From an uncultured Pseudomonadales bacterium (GTDB lineage: Bacteria > Pseudomonadota > Gammaproteobacteria > Pseudomonadales > IMCC2047): 5,744 nucleotides of DNA. A model generated the notes under the pieces. That model did no database searches, was not told the DNA's origin, and saw only the letters and a program-made list of their open reading frames with translations. Location of the stretch: contig CAMYKE010000117.1 of NCBI GenBank assembly GCA_947258895.1, forward strand, positions 4,423-10,166, given 5' to 3'. Positions 1 through 5,744 of this stretch are shown in pieces; the first letter of the stretch is position 1; each line of letters starts with the position of its first letter. The position numbers and the translations under genes were made by a program.

Positions 1-581
1 ACCCCGTAGCGCAGGTAATCGGGAAACATGGCCCCGGGAGCGATTTGATAGATGTATTCCGGCGACAGGGCCAGGCCGACTACGGTTAGGGCCTTGCGCC
101 GGCCGTTAATGGTCGCACGTATTGTATCGCCCGCCTGTAAACCATGGGCATGCGCAAACTCTTCGCTGACCAATACCTCGTTATCGCGGCCCGGCTCCAG
201 CAGCCGGCCGTTACGCAAGTAGATCTGGTTGAGAAGGCCTCGACCATGATTGGGCAAGGAAAGCAGGTGTCCACTGACCGGATCGTCGAAACCTGCGACA
301 TCCAGGTTCACGTAGGCGACCACCCGCGTCTCCACCTTGTCGACGCCGGCGATTTCCTCGATGCGTTTGATCAGCGACAGCGGGGCGCGCTTGAGTGACG
401 CGAACACCTGGGCGAAGTGGTGATTACGATAATAGACTTCCCTGGTTTCATAGAGGGAATCGAGCGTGCTCAGCGACATAATGAAGATGCCCACGCCACC
501 GACGATGACGAGCGCAATCGCCAGAGCCTGCATGCGCATACCCCACAGTTCGCGCCAGAGCTTTTTATCGATGGCTTTCAC
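1..581 (-). CDS. ABC transporter permease, FtsX/MacB-like (partial, N-terminal part)
   Basis: This inner-membrane permease would pair with the ATPase encoded just upstream, in a LolCDE/MacB-type (type VII) exporter. I translated it by hand: it opens with GTG at 581-579 and stays open to the window edge, giving 193 residues of a protein that usually has about 400 or, in the two-module form, about 800. Residues 2-13 are basic and amphipathic (KAIDKKLWRELW). Residues ~18-38 form one hydrophobic membrane segment, followed by SLSTLDSLYETREVYY and a soluble MacB_PCD-like periplasmic region (FAQVFASLKRAP, then IEEIAGVDKVETRVV). The ATPase stop codon lies in the same frame four codons upstream, so GTG is the first possible start; the next Met codons (15 and 17) would remove conserved N-terminal sequence. 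No strong Shine-Dalgarno precedes it, so translational coupling to the ATPase is likely. Family assignment is confident; the substrate is unknown. Confidence 0.88.
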   Translation of the reverse strand, partial: MKAIDKKLWRELWGMRMQALAIALVIVGGVGIFIMSLSTLDSLYETREVYYRNHHFAQVFASLKRAPLSLIKRIEEIAGVDKVETRVVAYVNLDVAGFDDPVSGHLLSLPNHGRGLLNQIYLRNGRLLEPGRDNEVLVSEEFAHAHGLQAGDTIRATINGRRKALTVVGLALSPEYIYQIAPGAMFPDYLRYG

Positions 582-590
582 CGCGCCCGC

Positions 591-1334
591 TTACCAGCTA
601 AGCTCGCGGGGAGCGAGTCTGGTCTCGTTGATACGCTCCTGGCTGATGCGCCCGTCAGTTAGGTGAATGACCCGGTCCGCCATTTGTGCAATAACGGCAT
701 TATGGGTTATCACCGCGGTCGTGGTACCTAGCTCGAGATTGGCGCGTTGCAGCGCCTCTAACACCACGACGCCGGTTGCGGAATCGAGCGCGCCCGTCGG
801 CTCGTCGCAGAGCAACACATCCGGATTCTTGGCGATCGCGCGAGCGATGGCGACCCGTTGTTGTTCGCCTCCCGAAAGCTGCGCCGGAAAGTGTCCCATG
901 CGTTCGGCCAGGCCAACCAATTGCAACGCATCCTCCGGCTGCATGGGATCCCTGGCGATCTCTGTCACCACCGCGACGTTTTCGCGGGCCGTGAGACTTG
1001 GAATCAGATTGTAAAACTGGAATACAAAGCCGACATGGTAACGCCGGTATGCGGTCAGCTCGCTCTCGCTGGCGCGGGTTAGATCGCGCTCGCCATAAAA
1101 CACATGCCCCTGGGTTGGGGTATCCAGTCCACCGAGGATGTTCAACAAGGTGGATTTTCCACTGCCGGAAGCGCCCAGCAACACGGTGAACTCTCCGCTA
1201 TAAAGATCCAGGTCCACACCGCGCAGAGCATGCACCTGTACCTCACCCATCTGGTATACCTTGGTGACACCATGGACATGGAACACCACGCCTTCATCCA
1301 GTGGCGCATGGACGGCTTGTTTGTCCCGTGACAT
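591..1334 (-). CDS. ABC transporter ATP-binding protein, LolD/MacB family
   Basis: This cytoplasmic ATPase energises the FtsX-like permease encoded nine bases downstream. At 247 residues it is complete and typical in length. All nucleotide-binding motifs are present: A-loop Tyr27, Walker [10 protein letters not shown] (54-62), Q-loop Gln106 in VFQFYNL, signature LSGGEQQ (153-159), Walker [13 protein letters not shown] (173-184) and H-loop His211 in VITHN. The sequence between Walker A and the Q-loop ([14 protein letters not shown]) and the PTGALDS segment are characteristic of the LolD/MacB/FtsE branch. The start at 1334 is preceded by AAGGGAG (1348-1342) with a 7-base spacer. It is the first gene of the operon as seen; a possible FNR/Anr-dependent promoter lies 45-94 bases upstream. 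A membrane-fusion partner is common in such operons but is not visible and could lie beyond the left edge. The cargo (lipoprotein, peptide or other) cannot be read from the sequence. Confidence 0.93.
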
Positions 1335-1378
1335 CAGGCTGCTCCCTTAGCAGTCCATCTGCAATTATGTTGCCGACA

Positions 1379-1428
1379 GGCGCATAGTGTAGCAGTGGCG
1401 AAAGGTCGAAAGCCTTGATCCTGATCAG
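1379..1428 (-). promoter_or_regulatory. Candidate class II FNR/Anr-type promoter for the ABC operon
   Basis: TTGATCCTGATCAG (1415-1428) matches the FNR/Anr/Dnr consensus TTGAT-N4-ATCAA at 9 of 10 defined bases. Read on the minus strand, a -10-like TACACT sits at 1391-1386 and predicts a transcript start near 1379-1380. That puts the box centre about 41.5-42.5 bases upstream, the spacing of a class II FNR-activated promoter. The predicted leader is about 45 bases and contains the AAGGGAG ribosome binding site. The motif and spacing are seen directly; oxygen-dependent control is inference. Confidence 0.45.
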
Positions 1429-1499
1429 AATTACCGGGACTAGTGCATTAACCACGACCTGGCGAAAATAGGCGGCCTCAACTGATGCTTGCGCCGGTA

Positions 1500-1520
1500 G
1501 ATAGTGCCAATCGCACTATC
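1500..1520. repeat. Perfect 8-bp inverted repeat, operator-like
   Basis: GATAGTGC (1500-1507) and GCACTATC (1513-1520) are exact reverse complements separated by five bases. No T-run follows on either strand, so it is not a terminator. Arms of this length with a 5-base spacer look like a binding site for a dimeric regulator. It lies about 166 bases upstream of the ATPase start. I cannot name the regulator; the orientation GTGC-N5-GCAC is opposite to that of NtrC sites. Confidence 0.4.
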
Positions 1521-1579
1521 CGCGGCATCGCCGAACCGAGAAGTTCGCGTATTTGAAAGCTGATTTATGAGTTAACCTA

Positions 1580-1591
1580 CCGGGATCCCGG
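1580..1591. repeat. Perfect 12-bp palindrome containing GGATCC
   Basis: CCGGGATCCCGG is fully self-complementary with no spacer and has a BamHI hexamer at its centre (1583-1588). It could be a protein binding site or chance. Its core equals a common synthetic BamHI linker sequence, which is worth noting beside the CTGCAG junction further on, but no gene is interrupted here and no compositional break is obvious. Confidence 0.3.
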
Positions 1592-1658
1592 ACCCTGAGC
1601 CGTCGTTCGCGAAATTCGTCGGACGTGTATCTAAGCGAAAGCTGTATAGCGCAAAAGC

Positions 1659-1676
1659 GCCACGAAGAGCCACGAA
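1659..1676. repeat. Short tandem direct repeat, 10-bp period
   Basis: GCCACGAA occurs at 1659-1666 and again at 1669-1676, a period of ten bases or about one helical turn. Directly before it is GCGC-AAAA-GCGC (1649-1660), a small hairpin. It may be a paired regulator half-site or a fragment of an intergenic repeat family of the CACGAAGA type; with only two copies neither is shown. Confidence 0.3.
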
Positions 1677-1740
1677 TAACGCCCTTGTTGCTCTGGCGAT
1701 TATCAGGTTCGATAAGCGCACCTGCCAATGCGCGCATGCA

Positions 1741-1757
1741 TGCATATTTGCGGTGCC
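1741..1757 (+). promoter_or_regulatory. NtrC-like enhancer site upstream of nasA
   Basis: TGCATATTTGCGGTGCC fits TGCAC-N7-GTGCA at 8 of the 10 half-site bases with exact spacing. It lies about 240-260 bases upstream of the start predicted from the sigma-54 element at 1972-1987, a plausible enhancer distance. NtrC activation of nitrate assimilation genes through sigma-54 is established in several proteobacteria; binding here is inference from one degenerate match. Confidence 0.3.
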
Positions 1758-1766
1758 AGCCTTCTA

Positions 1767-1795
1767 TTTTTGCCCGTATTTTGCTATTTTATAAT
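1767..1795 (+). promoter_or_regulatory. Weak sigma-70-like promoter with perfect TATAAT
   Basis: A consensus -10 TATAAT lies at 1790-1795 in an AT-rich stretch. The hexamer 17 bases upstream (TTTTTG, 1767-1772) is a poor -35. The start would fall near 1802, leaving about 400 bases of leader before nasA, so it may be fortuitous or serve a transcript I do not recognise. Confidence 0.25.
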
Positions 1796-1971
1796 CTGCT
1801 GCGCTTGTTAGGCCCACATGGGCAGTCGTCTTGGCGCAGCTCTTGATCGGCACGATAACAATACATTCTGTCGAACGCTGTTGGCAGGTGAGTTTCGATG
1901 GTAATGCCGATCCGGTATGGACGCCACTCTGGCTGCTGATTGAGTTGTTTAAAACATCAACTGACTAACTG

Positions 1972-1987
1972 TTGGCGTATGACTTGC
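1972..1987 (+). promoter_or_regulatory. Candidate sigma-54 (-24/-12) promoter for nasA
   Basis: TTGGCGTATGACTTGC carries the -24 GG (1974-1975) and -12 GC (1986-1987) separated by exactly ten bases, and matches TTGGC and TTGC of the RpoN consensus. The predicted transcript start is near 1998-1999, giving a leader of about 205 bases before the nasA ATG. An inverted repeat AGTTG-N10-CAACT (1943-1962) in AT-rich sequence lies just upstream and might bend DNA. Within the leader, AAATGC-AGTTA-GCATTT (2012-2028) and GGGCAG-N13-CTGCCC (2041-2065) can form hairpins. I could not fit them to the ANTAR-type (NasT/NasR) hexaloop pattern, and no T-run terminator follows. Confidence 0.5.
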
Positions 1988-2203
1988 GACCCAGAGGGGT
2001 GAAGTCGTGGCAAATGCAGTTAGCATTTATTTCCAGGCTTGGGCAGGATTGCATTGCCACTGCCCGCTCCTATCCCTTGAAAGCCCCGTTGCGTGCCGGC
2101 TGTGCGATTCGGTACGGCAATCGGGTGCGGCCCCCATGCCTGCCGGGGCGTCGCCCTTTGTAGTGTCGCATCGTGCGGCGATCGTGGAATAACGAGCCGC
2201 CCC

Positions 2204-4468
2204 ATGTCCAGCGACGGCCTGCACAAACCTTTCACCGACACCCACTGTCCCTATTGTGCCTTGCAGTGCGGCATGACCCTGCACAGGGACGGGGCGAGCG
2301 CGGCACGGGTAGAAGCCCGTAACTTCCCCACCAACCGGGGTGGCCTGTGCCGCAAGGGCTGGACTTGTGCGCAATTGCTCGAGTTGCCGGAGCGGCTGAC
2401 CACCCCGTTACTCCGTGATCCGCTCGACAATCAGTTGAAACCTGCTTCGTGGGAACGGGCCATAGAGCATATCTGCTCGCATGTATCAGCGATCCAGCGA
2501 AGAGTTGGCCATGATGGCATCAGCCTCTATGGCGGCGGCGGCCTGACCAACGAGAAGGCCTACGCCCTGGGCAAGTTTGCGCGGGCAGTGCTGAAAACAC
2601 GTTACATCGACTACAACGGCCGCTTTTGTATGGCCGCGGCCGCCGTCGCCGCGCAAATGGCGTTTGGGATCGATCGCGGCCTGCCCTTTCCATTGCAGGA
2701 TATTTCCAGCGCGGATGTAGTGCTCATAGCCGGATCTAACCCCGCGAGCACCATGCCTCCAATCATGCAGTATTTCGACGCCCTGCGCGAGCAGGGGGGG
2801 AAACTTGTAGTTTCAGACCCGCGGCTAAGCGCCACCGCGGTGACCGCGGATTTGCACCTGCAACCGGTGCCGGGTACGGACCTGGCGTTATTCAACGGGT
2901 TGCTGTTTATCCTGATTCGCGACAAGCATATCGACGAGGCATTTATCGAGAACCACACCGGCGATTTTTCCGGGGTACGCCGGGTGGTACGAAATTACTG
3001 GCCCGACCGCGTCGAACGCCTTACCGGAGTGCCCACTGCGAAACTGGAGCAGGCCGCCACTCTGCTTGGCGCTGCGGACCGGTTGATCGTACTGAGCGGC
3101 CGCGGTATCGAGCAACAATGCACCGGCGTGGACAATGATCTGGCGCTCATCAACCTGGTGCTGGCGCTTGGTCAGGCAGGTAAACCCGGTTGCGGATACG
3201 GTTGTCTCACTGGACAGGGGAACGGCCAGGGAGGGCGAGAGCATGGCCAGAAGGCCGATCAGCTACCCGGTTACCGCAGCCTGGATGACCCGGTGGCACG
3301 TGAATGGGTGGCATCGGTGTGGGGGGTCGACGCTGCCAGTCTGCCGCCGCCGGGGTTGTCCGCCTGCGAGATGTTCGAACTGTTTGGCGAGCAGATTCAC
3401 GCGTTGCTGGTGTTCGCCGCCAACCCGGTGGTGTCGGCTCCGGACGCAATTCACTTTCGCGAACGCATTACCAGACTCGACTTGCTGGTGGTGTGCGATT
3501 CATTCCTCTCCGAAACCGCCAACTGTGCGGACGTGGTATTACCGGTGACCCAGTGGGCCGAGGAACTCGGTACCATGACCAATCTCGAGGGCAGGGTCAT
3601 ACTCCGCACTCCCTTGCAGCCCCCGCCCGAGGGCGTGCTAAGCGATCTCGAGGTAATGGCGAGGATCGCCCAGGGACTAGGTTACCAGGGCGTTTTCGCA
3701 ACCGAACCCGAAGTGGTATTTAACGAACTGCGACGCGCCAGCAAGGGCGGTATTGCCGATTACAGCGGCATCAGTTACGCGCGGATTAGCGCCGAGCAGG
3801 GTGTGTTCTGGCCGTGTCCGGACGAACAGCACCCGGGCACGCCGCGCTTGTTTGAAACAGGTTTTTACACTGCCGATGGTCGCGCCCGATTTCATCCGGT
3901 AGATTATTCCGATTCTGCGGAGGCAACCAGTGACGAGTATCCGCTGTTTGTCACCACGGGCAGGCTGGCGCTGCAGGTTCCGCAGAAGGTGTGGGTGAAG
4001 CGTTCGGCGTCGGGCACCTTGAACGAGCGCAGCGCGTCCTCGCCGTGCAGCCAGCGGAAGGCGTGGGGGCTGTGGAAGGCGTTGGTCGCGTACGCGGCCC
4101 CGCGCGCCTTGCGGCAGCGCGCGCAGTGGCAGTTGCGCAGCAGCTCCAGGTCGGCCGCCAGCTCCCAGGCGACGCGACCGCACAGGCAGCTGCCGCGCGC
4201 GCAGCCGGGCTCGCTTGCGTTCCGCTCGGGCGGCACCAGCTGCGGGTCCGGGAGGCCGGGCGGCAGGATGTCGAAGCGGGGCAGGTCGTCGGCGATCTCG
4301 TGCCAGGGCGCCCTGGAGGCCGCGAAGATGTGCGCCACCGGGCGCGCGCCCGGATCGTCGTCGAGCGCTCCCGCCGCCATGATGACCCGTTCGCCGGTGG
4401 GCTCCGAGGGGGTCGGCGAGCCGCAGCGTTGGCAGAACGGGCGCTCGTTGCCCGGCGAGGTGGCGTAG
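2204..4468 (+). CDS. nasA: Assimilatory nitrate reductase catalytic subunit, C-terminally truncated at a chimeric junction
   Basis: This cytoplasmic molybdenum bis-MGD enzyme reduces nitrate to nitrite for nitrogen assimilation. From ATG 2204, Cys15, Cys18, Cys22 and Cys49 with Lys51 form the [4Fe-4S] motif, and Cys142 in NGRFCMAAAA is the expected Mo ligand. TGQGNGQGGREHGQKADQLP (from residue ~336) is a NasA hallmark, and no Tat signal is present, unlike NapA. The frame is open from 2093, but the 37 extra residues resemble nothing and the conserved region begins just after M38, so 2204 is preferred despite a poor ribosome binding site. Homology stops at residue ~591 (3976), right after EYPLFVTTGR, the start of the molydopterin-binding domain. 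Residues 592-754 are read antisense through the GFA gene and are not genuine. Full NasA proteins have roughly 700-900 residues, so this product would lack its cofactor-closing domain and is probably inactive. A natural copy would probably sit near nirBD or a nitrate transporter; none is visible. Confidence 0.85.
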   Translation: MSSDGLHKPFTDTHCPYCALQCGMTLHRDGASAARVEARNFPTNRGGLCRKGWTCAQLLELPERLTTPLLRDPLDNQLKPASWERAIEHICSHVSAIQRRVGHDGISLYGGGGLTNEKAYALGKFARAVLKTRYIDYNGRFCMAAAAVAAQMAFGIDRGLPFPLQDISSADVVLIAGSNPASTMPPIMQYFDALREQGGKLVVSDPRLSATAVTADLHLQPVPGTDLALFNGLLFILIRDKHIDEAFIENHTGDFSGVRRVVRNYWPDRVERLTGVPTAKLEQAATLLGAADRLIVLSGRGIEQQCTGVDNDLALINLVLALGQAGKPGCGYGCLTGQGNGQGGREHGQKADQLPGYRSLDDPVAREWVASVWGVDAASLPPPGLSACEMFELFGEQIHALLVFAANPVVSAPDAIHFRERITRLDLLVVCDSFLSETANCADVVLPVTQWAEELGTMTNLEGRVILRTPLQPPPEGVLSDLEVMARIAQGLGYQGVFATEPEVVFNELRRASKGGIADYSGISYARISAEQGVFWPCPDEQHPGTPRLFETGFYTADGRARFHPVDYSDSAEATSDEYPLFVTTGRLALQVPQKVWVKRSASGTLNERSASSPCSQRKAWGLWKALVAYAAPRALRQRAQWQLRSSSRSAASSQATRPHRQLPRAQPGSLAFRSGGTSCGSGRPGGRMSKRGRSSAISCQGALEAAKMCATGRAPGSSSSAPAAMMTRSPVGSEGVGEPQRWQNGRSLPGEVA

Positions 4469-4647
4469 AAGCCGAGCCGATCGCTGCCGCGCACGAAGCG
4501 GAAGCCCGCTGCCGGGGCGGCCGCAAGCGTTGCAAAGCTGGAGCCGTGGAACTTGCGGCAGAGGGAGCAGTGGCAGTGGTAGAGAAAGTCGCAGGGACCC
4601 GGGACTTCCCACGCCACGTCGCCGCACAGGCAGCTGCCGCCCACCAT
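3904..4647 (-). CDS. Tandem two-domain GFA (glutathione-dependent formaldehyde-activating/CENP-V-like) protein, C-terminus lost
   Basis: GFA-family proteins are small zinc-binding enzymes or carriers associated with glutathione adducts such as S-hydroxymethylglutathione; their actual reactions are mostly unproven. Two GFA modules follow one another. Module 1 (about 1-125) has CLC at 6-8, HCHCSLC with Cys25, 27 and 30, and FCQRCG with Cys72 and 75. Module 2 (from about 150) repeats this with CLC at 154-156, NCHCARC with Cys173, 175 and 178, and FCGTC with Cys222 and 225. Both zinc-ligand sets are therefore present. Residues 226-247 are antisense nitrate reductase sequence, so the natural end of module 2 (an estimated 30-40 residues) is missing. 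The start at 4647 is well supported by GGAGG (4657-4653) with a 5-base spacer. That site overlaps the stop codon of the upstream HAD gene, so the two are co-transcribed and probably coupled. Confidence 0.85.
   Translation of the reverse strand: MVGGSCLCGDVAWEVPGPCDFLYHCHCSLCRKFHGSSFATLAAAPAAGFRFVRGSDRLGFYATSPGNERPFCQRCGSPTPSEPTGERVIMAAGALDDDPGARPVAHIFAASRAPWHEIADDLPRFDILPPGLPDPQLVPPERNASEPGCARGSCLCGRVAWELAADLELLRNCHCARCRKARGAAYATNAFHSPHAFRWLHGEDALRSFKVPDAERFTHTFCGTCSASLPVVTNSGYSSLVASAESE
3971..3976. other. Probable chimeric junction at a CTGCAG (PstI) hexamer
   Basis: On the plus strand NasA-like sequence ends at ALQ, whose Leu-Gln codons are CTG CAG. On the minus strand GFA-like sequence ends at FCGTC, with the last Cys codon inside the same hexamer. 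Beyond it each frame reads the antisense of the other gene. Coding GC content changes from about 58-60% to about 70% at this point. No insertion sequence, tRNA, attachment site or target duplication is seen. The coincidence of two gene breaks, a composition step and a six-base restriction site points to ligation of unrelated fragments; misassembly or natural rearrangement remain alternatives. Confidence 0.7.
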
Positions 4648-4656
4648 GTCCGCCTC

Positions 4657-5430
4657 CTAGATGTGGTCCAACAGGTCGGCCAGGCGTTCCACGGTGAGGG
4701 TGGGCGGATGGGCGTCCTCGGACCAGGGCTTCGCCTTGGCGTTGATCCACACCGTCTTGAAGCCCAGGCGGCCGGCGCCCCAGGCGTCGCTCACCGCCAG
4801 GTCGCCTACGTGGAGGGCCCGCTCCGGTGTGGCGTCGAAGGGCGCCAGTGCCGTCTCGAAGATGCGCGGGTGCGGCTTGCGCACGCCCACGGCATCCGAA
4901 ATCACCACGTGGTCCAGCAGATCGGTGAGGCCGGCCTGCGCCAGCATGGCCGGGCCCGCGGGCGCGTGGTCCCAGTTGGACACCAGCACCGTGCGCACCT
5001 CTCGATCGCGCACGCGTCCCAGCAGCTCGACGGCGCCCTCCACGGCGTGGGCGGCGGAAACCAGGGTGGCGTGGTGGGTGTCGGCCACGGCGGTGGCCAC
5101 GCTCTCCACCTCGTCGGGGTCGCGCACGCCCAGCTCGGCCAGCATGCGCCGGTACTTCTCCACCGCGGAGATCTCCGCCCAGCGTTCGTCGTCGCTGCCG
5201 TCCTGGCGGTTCAGCTCTACGCGCATCGTGGCCCACATGGAGCGCACCGCGTTCACCAGCCGGTCCAGCGGTACGTTGCGTTCCGCGAAGACACGCTCGT
5301 GCACGACGGGCAGGGTGGTGCGGATCTCGTCGCCGCCCCAGCGAACGCTGGGAAGCTGCGACGTATCGATGTGGATCAGCGTGTCGAACAGGTCGAAGCA
5401 GGCGACGTCGACCCCGTCGAGGAGACTCAT
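4657..5430 (-). CDS. HAD-superfamily hydrolase (haloacid dehalogenase-like)
   Basis: This is a complete, probably cytoplasmic 257-residue HAD protein; the family hydrolyses phosphate esters or, less often, carbon-halogen bonds. Motif I is CFDLFDTL, with nucleophile Asp13. The position two residues on, usually an Asp general acid in phosphatases, is Phe15; this resembles the D-x-Y/F-G-T form seen in L-2-haloacid dehalogenases and some uncharacterised HADs. Motif II is VLVSNWD (Ser151), motif III VRKPHP (Lys185), and motif IV HVGDLAVSD (Asp210, Asp215). A helical cap lies between motifs I and II (about residues 20-135). No good Shine-Dalgarno precedes ATG 5430, so the start is the first conserved one rather than proven; the preceding sequence is a short divergent gap. 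It is followed nine bases later by the GFA gene. Substrate unknown: phosphatase and dehalogenase are both possible. Confidence 0.9.
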   Translation of the reverse strand: MSLLDGVDVACFDLFDTLIHIDTSQLPSVRWGGDEIRTTLPVVHERVFAERNVPLDRLVNAVRSMWATMRVELNRQDGSDDERWAEISAVEKYRRMLAELGVRDPDEVESVATAVADTHHATLVSAAHAVEGAVELLGRVRDREVRTVLVSNWDHAPAGPAMLAQAGLTDLLDHVVISDAVGVRKPHPRIFETALAPFDATPERALHVGDLAVSDAWGAGRLGFKTVWINAKAKPWSEDAHPPTLTVERLADLLDHI

Positions 5431-5507
5431 GGGATGCGTTAGAGTAGCCGCGGGAGCCGGCGCATGCTTGGTTCCCGTTCTCTTTCCGCCTCCATACCCG
5501 AGGTCCC
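5431..5507. promoter_or_regulatory. Divergent intergenic region between HAD-GFA operon and LLM oxidoreductase gene
   Basis: Seventy-seven bases separate the two divergent starts, so promoters for both genes should lie here or overlap the coding ends. I see no convincing -35/-10 pair in either direction; TACTCT upstream of the HAD gene on the minus strand is only a weak -10 candidate. Shared control of the two units is possible but is inferred only from the layout. Confidence 0.35.
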
Positions 5508-5744
5508 ATGCGTTTCACGTACGCCGAATCGATGTGCGACCCCAGTCACTATCTGCCGCTCGCGGTCGCCGCCGACCAGCACGGCTGGCACTCCTTCACC
5601 GTGCCGGACAGCATCTGCTACCCGGAGCATTCGGATACCCAGTACCCGTACACCGACGACGGAACCCGCCAGTTCCTGGACGGCGTTCCCTTCATCGAGC
5701 CCTTCACCCTGATTCCCGCCCTGGCGGCGGTGACCGAGCGGCTG
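5508..5744 (+). CDS. LLM class (luciferase-like) flavin/F420-dependent oxidoreductase, partial N-terminus
   Basis: The frame opens at ATG 5508 and runs off the right edge, giving 79 residues of a protein family usually about 300-350 residues long. The hand translation starts MRFTYAESMCDPSHYLPLAV, then AADQHGWHSFTVPDS and PFIEPFTLIPALAAVTERL. This is the usual beginning of a luciferase-like TIM barrel: strand 1, a helix containing A-x2-x-E/H-x-G-(F/W), then strand 2 ending in PDS. The E-P-(F/W)-x-x-L-x-A-L-A-A-x-T-x-R-L segment is highly characteristic. A short GAGG (5500-5503) lies four bases before the ATG. Members use FMN or coenzyme F420 to oxidise or reduce varied substrates; the cofactor and substrate cannot be decided from this fragment. 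It is divergent from the HAD-GFA pair. Confidence 0.85.
   Translation, partial: MRFTYAESMCDPSHYLPLAVAADQHGWHSFTVPDSICYPEHSDTQYPYTDDGTRQFLDGVPFIEPFTLIPALAAVTERL

Follow-up and report, generated by a model that had tools for sequence, protein, structure and literature searches.

A contig in which a nitrate reductase gene and a GFA-family gene have very probably been joined artefactually within a short stretch that fits both

Results

Genes and truncated reading frames

The window, by which is meant the whole stretch of 5,744 nucleotides that was analysed, opens with the gene of a predicted ABC transporter permease with a MacB-like core (3..581, minus strand). It is cut by the window edge and scores 25.9 bits against Pfam PF12704, just under the cut-off of 27. 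The neighbouring gene (591..1334, minus strand) encodes an ABC transporter ATP-binding protein (Pfam PF00005) which is LolD/DevA-like, with scores for LolD (202 bits) and DevA (195 bits) that are both under the cut-offs. Its homologues reach 88%; among them, two named ones are from Thiotrichaceae and one is from a MAG labelled as a Halobacteria archaeon. Approximately 870 bases (1335-2203) separate this gene from the nitrate reductase gene, which is divergent to it. The GC content is about 51% over 1401-2000, the largest open reading frame lying fully inside the interval encodes 73 amino acids (frames of at least 60 amino acids being considered), and neither an Rfam family nor a tRNA was found there.

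A reading frame of 754 amino acids starts at ATG 2204 on the plus strand. Residues 1-591 (2204..3976) belong to the catalytic subunit of a NasC-like assimilatory nitrate reductase whose C-terminal part is missing, an assignment based on NCBIfam NF047855 (681 bits, under the cut-off of 1100), on the alignment of homologues and on counts in the alignment columns. The remaining 163 residues and the stop (3977..4468, plus strand) form a false tail which is antisense to the GFA gene. The first-pass annotation had described a false fusion of 754 residues, and this not only exists in the window but has entered the protein database as record P0001, which has one member, from a single contig of 10,166 bases, of which the window is therefore probably a part.

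Residues 500-640 of the nitrate reductase frame were compared with 5.8 billion proteins, giving 4967 matches in all. The 119 other listed matches have identities of 51-76% and cover 60-98% of the query, false tail included. As no close relative is among the matches listed, the organism behind this nitrate reductase seems to be poorly sampled. Forty of the 119 were aligned, and columns were counted over 118 of the 119, with P0021 left out. After a conserved TTGR the homologues have four residues and then Y-Q-S/T-G, where the window instead reads L-A-L-Q-V-P-Q-K. The fourth position after TTGR is Q or H and the fifth is Y in 118 of the 119, a count of Tyr which is partly by construction, as the filter that dropped the sole exception, P0021, itself required YQ[ST]G. 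The window keeps the Gln, residue 591 (3974-3976), and then has Val where those 118 carry Tyr. Judged from this alignment, the nitrate reductase family sequence fits through 3976.

P0021 (551 amino acids, JGI, on a contig of 2,138 bases) is alone among the 119 in losing the family sequence directly after TTGR, continuing as VLGPAARSATIP...; the cause may be a frameshift or a second chimera at this conserved site.

On the right, and in opposite orientation to the nitrate reductase, lies the gene of a two-domain GFA-family protein (3958..4647, minus strand), recognised by two stretches of Pfam PF04828 and by 97.8% DNA identity to the relative L002 described below. Its reading frame has 247 amino acids, and approximately 52 residues are missing compared to relatives of 282 amino acids. 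Only residues 1-230 are real. Alignment of 40 of the 120 listed homologues (2081 matches in all), with columns counted over all 120, places a Pro five residues past the last FCxxC in 120/120, followed by R in 100 of them. The window keeps that Pro (3958-3960) and then has V. Residues 231-247, together with a stop (3904..3957, minus strand), are a false tail antisense to the nitrate reductase; it is 17 residues long rather than the 22 originally claimed, the conserved Pro being what shortens it. Next come the gene of a HAD-family hydrolase (4657..5430, minus strand; Pfam PF00702), found at the same place in the relatives L001 and L002, and the 5' part (79 amino acids) of the gene of an LLM/F420-type oxidoreductase (5508..5744, plus strand), which is cut by the window edge and scores 32.6 bits against NCBIfam TIGR03619, under the cut-off of 166.9. 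Its counterpart in L001 and L002 is a frame of 290 amino acids.

That each open frame runs antisense through the other gene, as the first-pass annotation stated, is confirmed by the reading frames and the homologue alignments. It had also held that both genes lose family sequence at the hexamer CTGCAG. Alignment of both proteins with homologues, a check that it had recommended, places the ends of the family sequences at 3976 for the nitrate reductase, in agreement with the claim, and at 3958 for the GFA protein, which continues 13 bases further left than the hexamer.

Two-sided composition and relatives

The GC content is 58.7% at 1-3958 and 70.5% from 3977 onward. When a single change-point was fitted to the whole window by maximum likelihood, it fell at 3953 with a log-likelihood gain of 38.6, a break greater than chance. 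With the coding part alone the gain was 21.6, again at 3953, with 4004 almost equal. GC3 is about 0.70 on the left (0.67-0.72 in the three genes) and about 0.92 on the right (0.89-0.93 in the three genes). Synonymous codon usage differs between the nitrate reductase gene and the GFA, HAD and LLM genes taken together (chi2 137.5, 41 df), and shows no difference within the sides (chi2 34.3, 40 df; chi2 18.4, 22 df). The change-point and the codon usage thus give the break in composition between sides, at the join, that was sought as a mark of a chimeric metagenome contig.

The GFA homologue P0122, used as the query against genome contigs, gave 28 loci. The best two, L002 (uncultured delta proteobacterium isolate FCS_M_Myxococcota_03; 97.8% identical over 3952-5744) and L001 (Deltaproteobacteria bacterium; 91.2% identical over 3959-5744), match the right side only. 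In both, the LLM, HAD and GFA genes stand in the same order as in the window, the GFA gene is intact, and a frame of 349 amino acids follows it on the same strand. The GFA protein has 282 amino acids in L001; in L002 it forms the end of a longer frame, and it matches query residues 1-282. A parent that is intact and collinear past the join, the second mark sought, was found in L001 and L002, and for the right side only. With a limit of E<=1e-50, right-side DNA was present in 4/188 genomes from the phylum of genome G002 (G002 itself at 98%, the others at 73-79% over parts) and in 0/369 genomes in the gammaproteobacterial draw, from the class of the Chromatiales MAG G007.

The 39 listed differences between the window and L002 are unevenly spread: 33 lie in 3956-4849 and five in 5624-5681, with a single one in between, at 4994. 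This may reflect strain recombination or a mixed-strain consensus.

The genomes of L001 and L002, both of them MAGs that are possibly incomplete, yielded nothing closer to the nitrate reductase than a relative with 33% identity. For the left DNA, with 40 candidates scored per genome, they gave six short matches (82-125 bases, 70-74%), every one within the ABC gene. Across the class of G007, 35/369 genomes match the left DNA at E<=1e-60, the best match being to ABC/permease DNA, 77% over 1-1310 (961 bits). In the phylum of G002 the numbers are 23/188 at E<=1e-50 and 15/188 at E<=1e-60, with a best score of 346 bits, and all matches fall inside 372-1306, in and beside the ABC gene. Because the shares of genomes are similar (35/369 and 15/188) and the best scores alone differ (961 and 346 bits), the left side appears gammaproteobacterial on the strength of its best match rather than through being confined to that class, and its placement is soft. 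A close relative of the nitrate reductase was found in 0/396 gammaproteobacterial genomes at E<=1e-150 and in 0/4 at E<=1e-100, both searches being made without a positive control; a third gammaproteobacterial search gave 1/76 at E<=1e-100, with 39% identity. A plasmid search with the left gene returned 15 records, of which five listed are 64-71% identical and two unlisted lie in the 80-90% band. Neither the protein search nor the gammaproteobacterial genome searches yielded a close parent for the left side.

Separate placement of the two sides, also recommended in the first pass, therefore puts the left best in gammaproteobacterial genomes and the right in the Myxococcota/deltaproteobacterial L002. 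The window was divided into a left-hand parent (1..3965) and a right-hand parent of Myxococcota/deltaproteobacterial type (3966..5744), position 3965 agreeing with the nitrate reductase reading and not with L002.

The junction

On the protein alignments, the 19 bases at 3958..3976 fit both genes. The nitrate reductase family sequence runs through 3976 and that of GFA to 3958, so the two overlap over this stretch, and both protein signatures hold inside it and break down just outside. Identity to L002 is 91/94 at 3977-4070 and 18/19 at 3958-3976, and falls to 9/28 at 3930-3957 and 10/30 at 3900-3929. The sole mismatch inside the stretch is at 3965, where the window has the base that suits the nitrate reductase frame (CTG, Leu). 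The left-hand DNA thus probably extends to 3965 or beyond, the alternative being a strain variant at that position, and right-hand DNA would start by 3977. As the mismatch fits the nitrate reductase, the crossover would lie in the 11 bases 3966-3976, TGGCGCTGCAG, which are the exact run equal to L002. On the right the shared stretch can be read in L002; on the left, past 3965, we infer it from the protein family only.

Chance similarity was gauged by comparing pairs of stretches from the nitrate reductase gene (2204-3958) and from the GFA gene of L002. There was no exact 11-mer in common (0/1,151,700 pairs), the best 19-mer pairs had 16 matches, and at least 12 matches in 13 occurred in 2 of approximately 1.14 million 13-mer pairs, a frequency of 1.7e-6. 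Between the nitrate reductase gene and the whole 8.5-kb L002, exact 12-mers were shown at 5 places. The existence of these chance 12-mers makes the 11-mer alone unimpressive, and it is 18/19 in register that counts.

CTGCAG (3971..3976) is the sole PstI site of the window and was proposed in the first pass as the breaking point. L002 has it natively, at the same place, and the match to L002 continues to 3958; the hexamer is not supported as the point of the break. A palindromic hexamer close to the junction is not remarkable, since the window has 129 of them, at 2.2% of positions. The exact junction (34 bases, 3952-3985) is absent from viral contigs, as is a guessed left-parent version of it. 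Of 7 genomes searched for the window 19-mer 3961-3979, with up to two mismatches allowed, one (G002) has it, in a single copy that differs at one base. Scans of the window detected neither a tRNA nor an Rfam family; the join shows no repeat within 3700-4300, and the six proteins that were scanned carry no mobile-element domain.

Discussion

The contig is very probably an artefactual join of DNA from two organisms. The change-point at 3953, the codon usage and the match of L001 and L002 on the right side only all support the suspicion of a chimera raised in the first pass. The left part would come from a gammaproteobacterium-like genome and end inside an assimilatory nitrate reductase gene, and the right part would come from a Myxococcota/deltaproteobacterial genome and end inside a two-domain GFA gene. 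The join would have been made inside the short, near-identical stretch common to both genes on opposite strands, that is TGGCGCTGCAG at 3966-3976 and up to 19 bases at 3958-3976. The agent may have been a strand switch while DNA was being amplified, by MDA or in library PCR, or else software (an assembler or gap-closer) that joined the two parts on a short overlap. A strand switch would call for a short complementary stretch (2-21 nt) at the junction; over 3958-3976, 18/19 bases equal L002 and both families are intact, and the left parent would share this stretch if its DNA past 3965 is as the protein family predicts. A match of 18/19 in register is the mark of a join guided by short shared sequence, which blunt ligation would not be expected to leave. 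Nineteen bases are short for the usual assembler overlap or k-mer, the smallest k of de Bruijn metagenome assemblers being as a rule 21 or higher. For this reason we favour a strand switch as first choice, with a short-overlap software join or gap closing second, although the data do not separate the two.

Real recombination between phyla, in which a bacterium acquired foreign DNA and an illegitimate join at the shared 11-19 bases broke both genes, is very unlikely. Homology-facilitated illegitimate recombination would leave a short shared sequence at the join, as is found here, and the sequence itself is compatible with it. However, the right side keeps its native order and 97.8% identity to L002, the left side is uniform in a composition of its own over 3.9 kb, the join is marked by neither a tRNA, a known RNA nor a repeat, P0001 is found on one contig, and the junction is absent from viral contigs. 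That a gammaproteobacterium and a myxobacterial relative exchanged DNA very recently, with an illegitimate join inside two unrelated genes where about 19 bases happened to be alike, is very unlikely indeed.

Ligation of PstI-cut fragments from two organisms in a cloning or library step is barely credible. The site is at the junction and native to L002, and CTG CAG also fits the nitrate reductase (L-Q), so that both parents could carry it, but the likeness extends beyond the site: the 13 bases to its left, which on this explanation would be nitrate reductase DNA, equal L002 at 12/13, a match equalled or bettered in 2 of approximately 1.14 million 13-mer pairs from the two genes. PstI ligation accounts for the last six bases alone and leaves those 12/13 matches to chance.

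A rearrangement or chimera within one genome, by inversion or translocation of its own two genes, has next to nothing to commend it. The two genes do face each other, as in most MDA inversions described in PMC1855051, but the sides differ in composition and codon usage, and the L001 and L002 genomes offer no nitrate reductase relative above 33% and only the short ABC-gene matches to the left DNA. Insertion of a mobile element was rejected, as the first pass had already concluded, the protein, RNA and repeat scans having revealed no transposase or integrase domain, terminal repeats or tRNA at the join.

Most likely the join arose in the laboratory or during assembly and is not of biological origin. 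It has already yielded one false protein record of 754 amino acids, and any annotation that relied on the two truncated genes would be led astray. The early warning against linking left and right genes, in taxonomy or co-regulation, is supported by the evidence for two sources; claims of neighbourhood, taxonomy or transfer that span 3958-3976 should be dropped unless reads back the join. Each side is usable separately.

Chimeras formed during MDA were reportedly studied by Lasken and Stockwell in 2007. In the account given in PMC1855051, more than 70% of junctions had formed by priming at 2-21 complementary bases, and inversions made up 85%. The present join resembles those chimeras in being abrupt, in the opposite orientation of its genes and in the length of its probable shared stretch, which falls within that range of complementary bases. 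It differs in that the chimeras described there arose from one E. coli genome and mostly joined segments less than 10 kb apart, whereas here two organisms would be joined. For segments more than 10 kb apart, complementary bases were reported in just 27.6-34.8% of joins (PMC1855051), so that such similarity is less usual there, which counts against a strand switch. In simulated metagenomes, even simple ones, contigs that mix species are described as noticeable (PMC3100316). Many of those chimeric contigs joined close relatives, which counts against an artefactual join here, although those of Newbler and Velvet reached family rank or deeper (PMC3100316). The shared stretch here, at most 19 bases and so short for an assembler, sets the window apart. 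It resembles the contigs described in that source in carrying two taxonomic sources in one contig and in misassigned gene function (PMC3100316).
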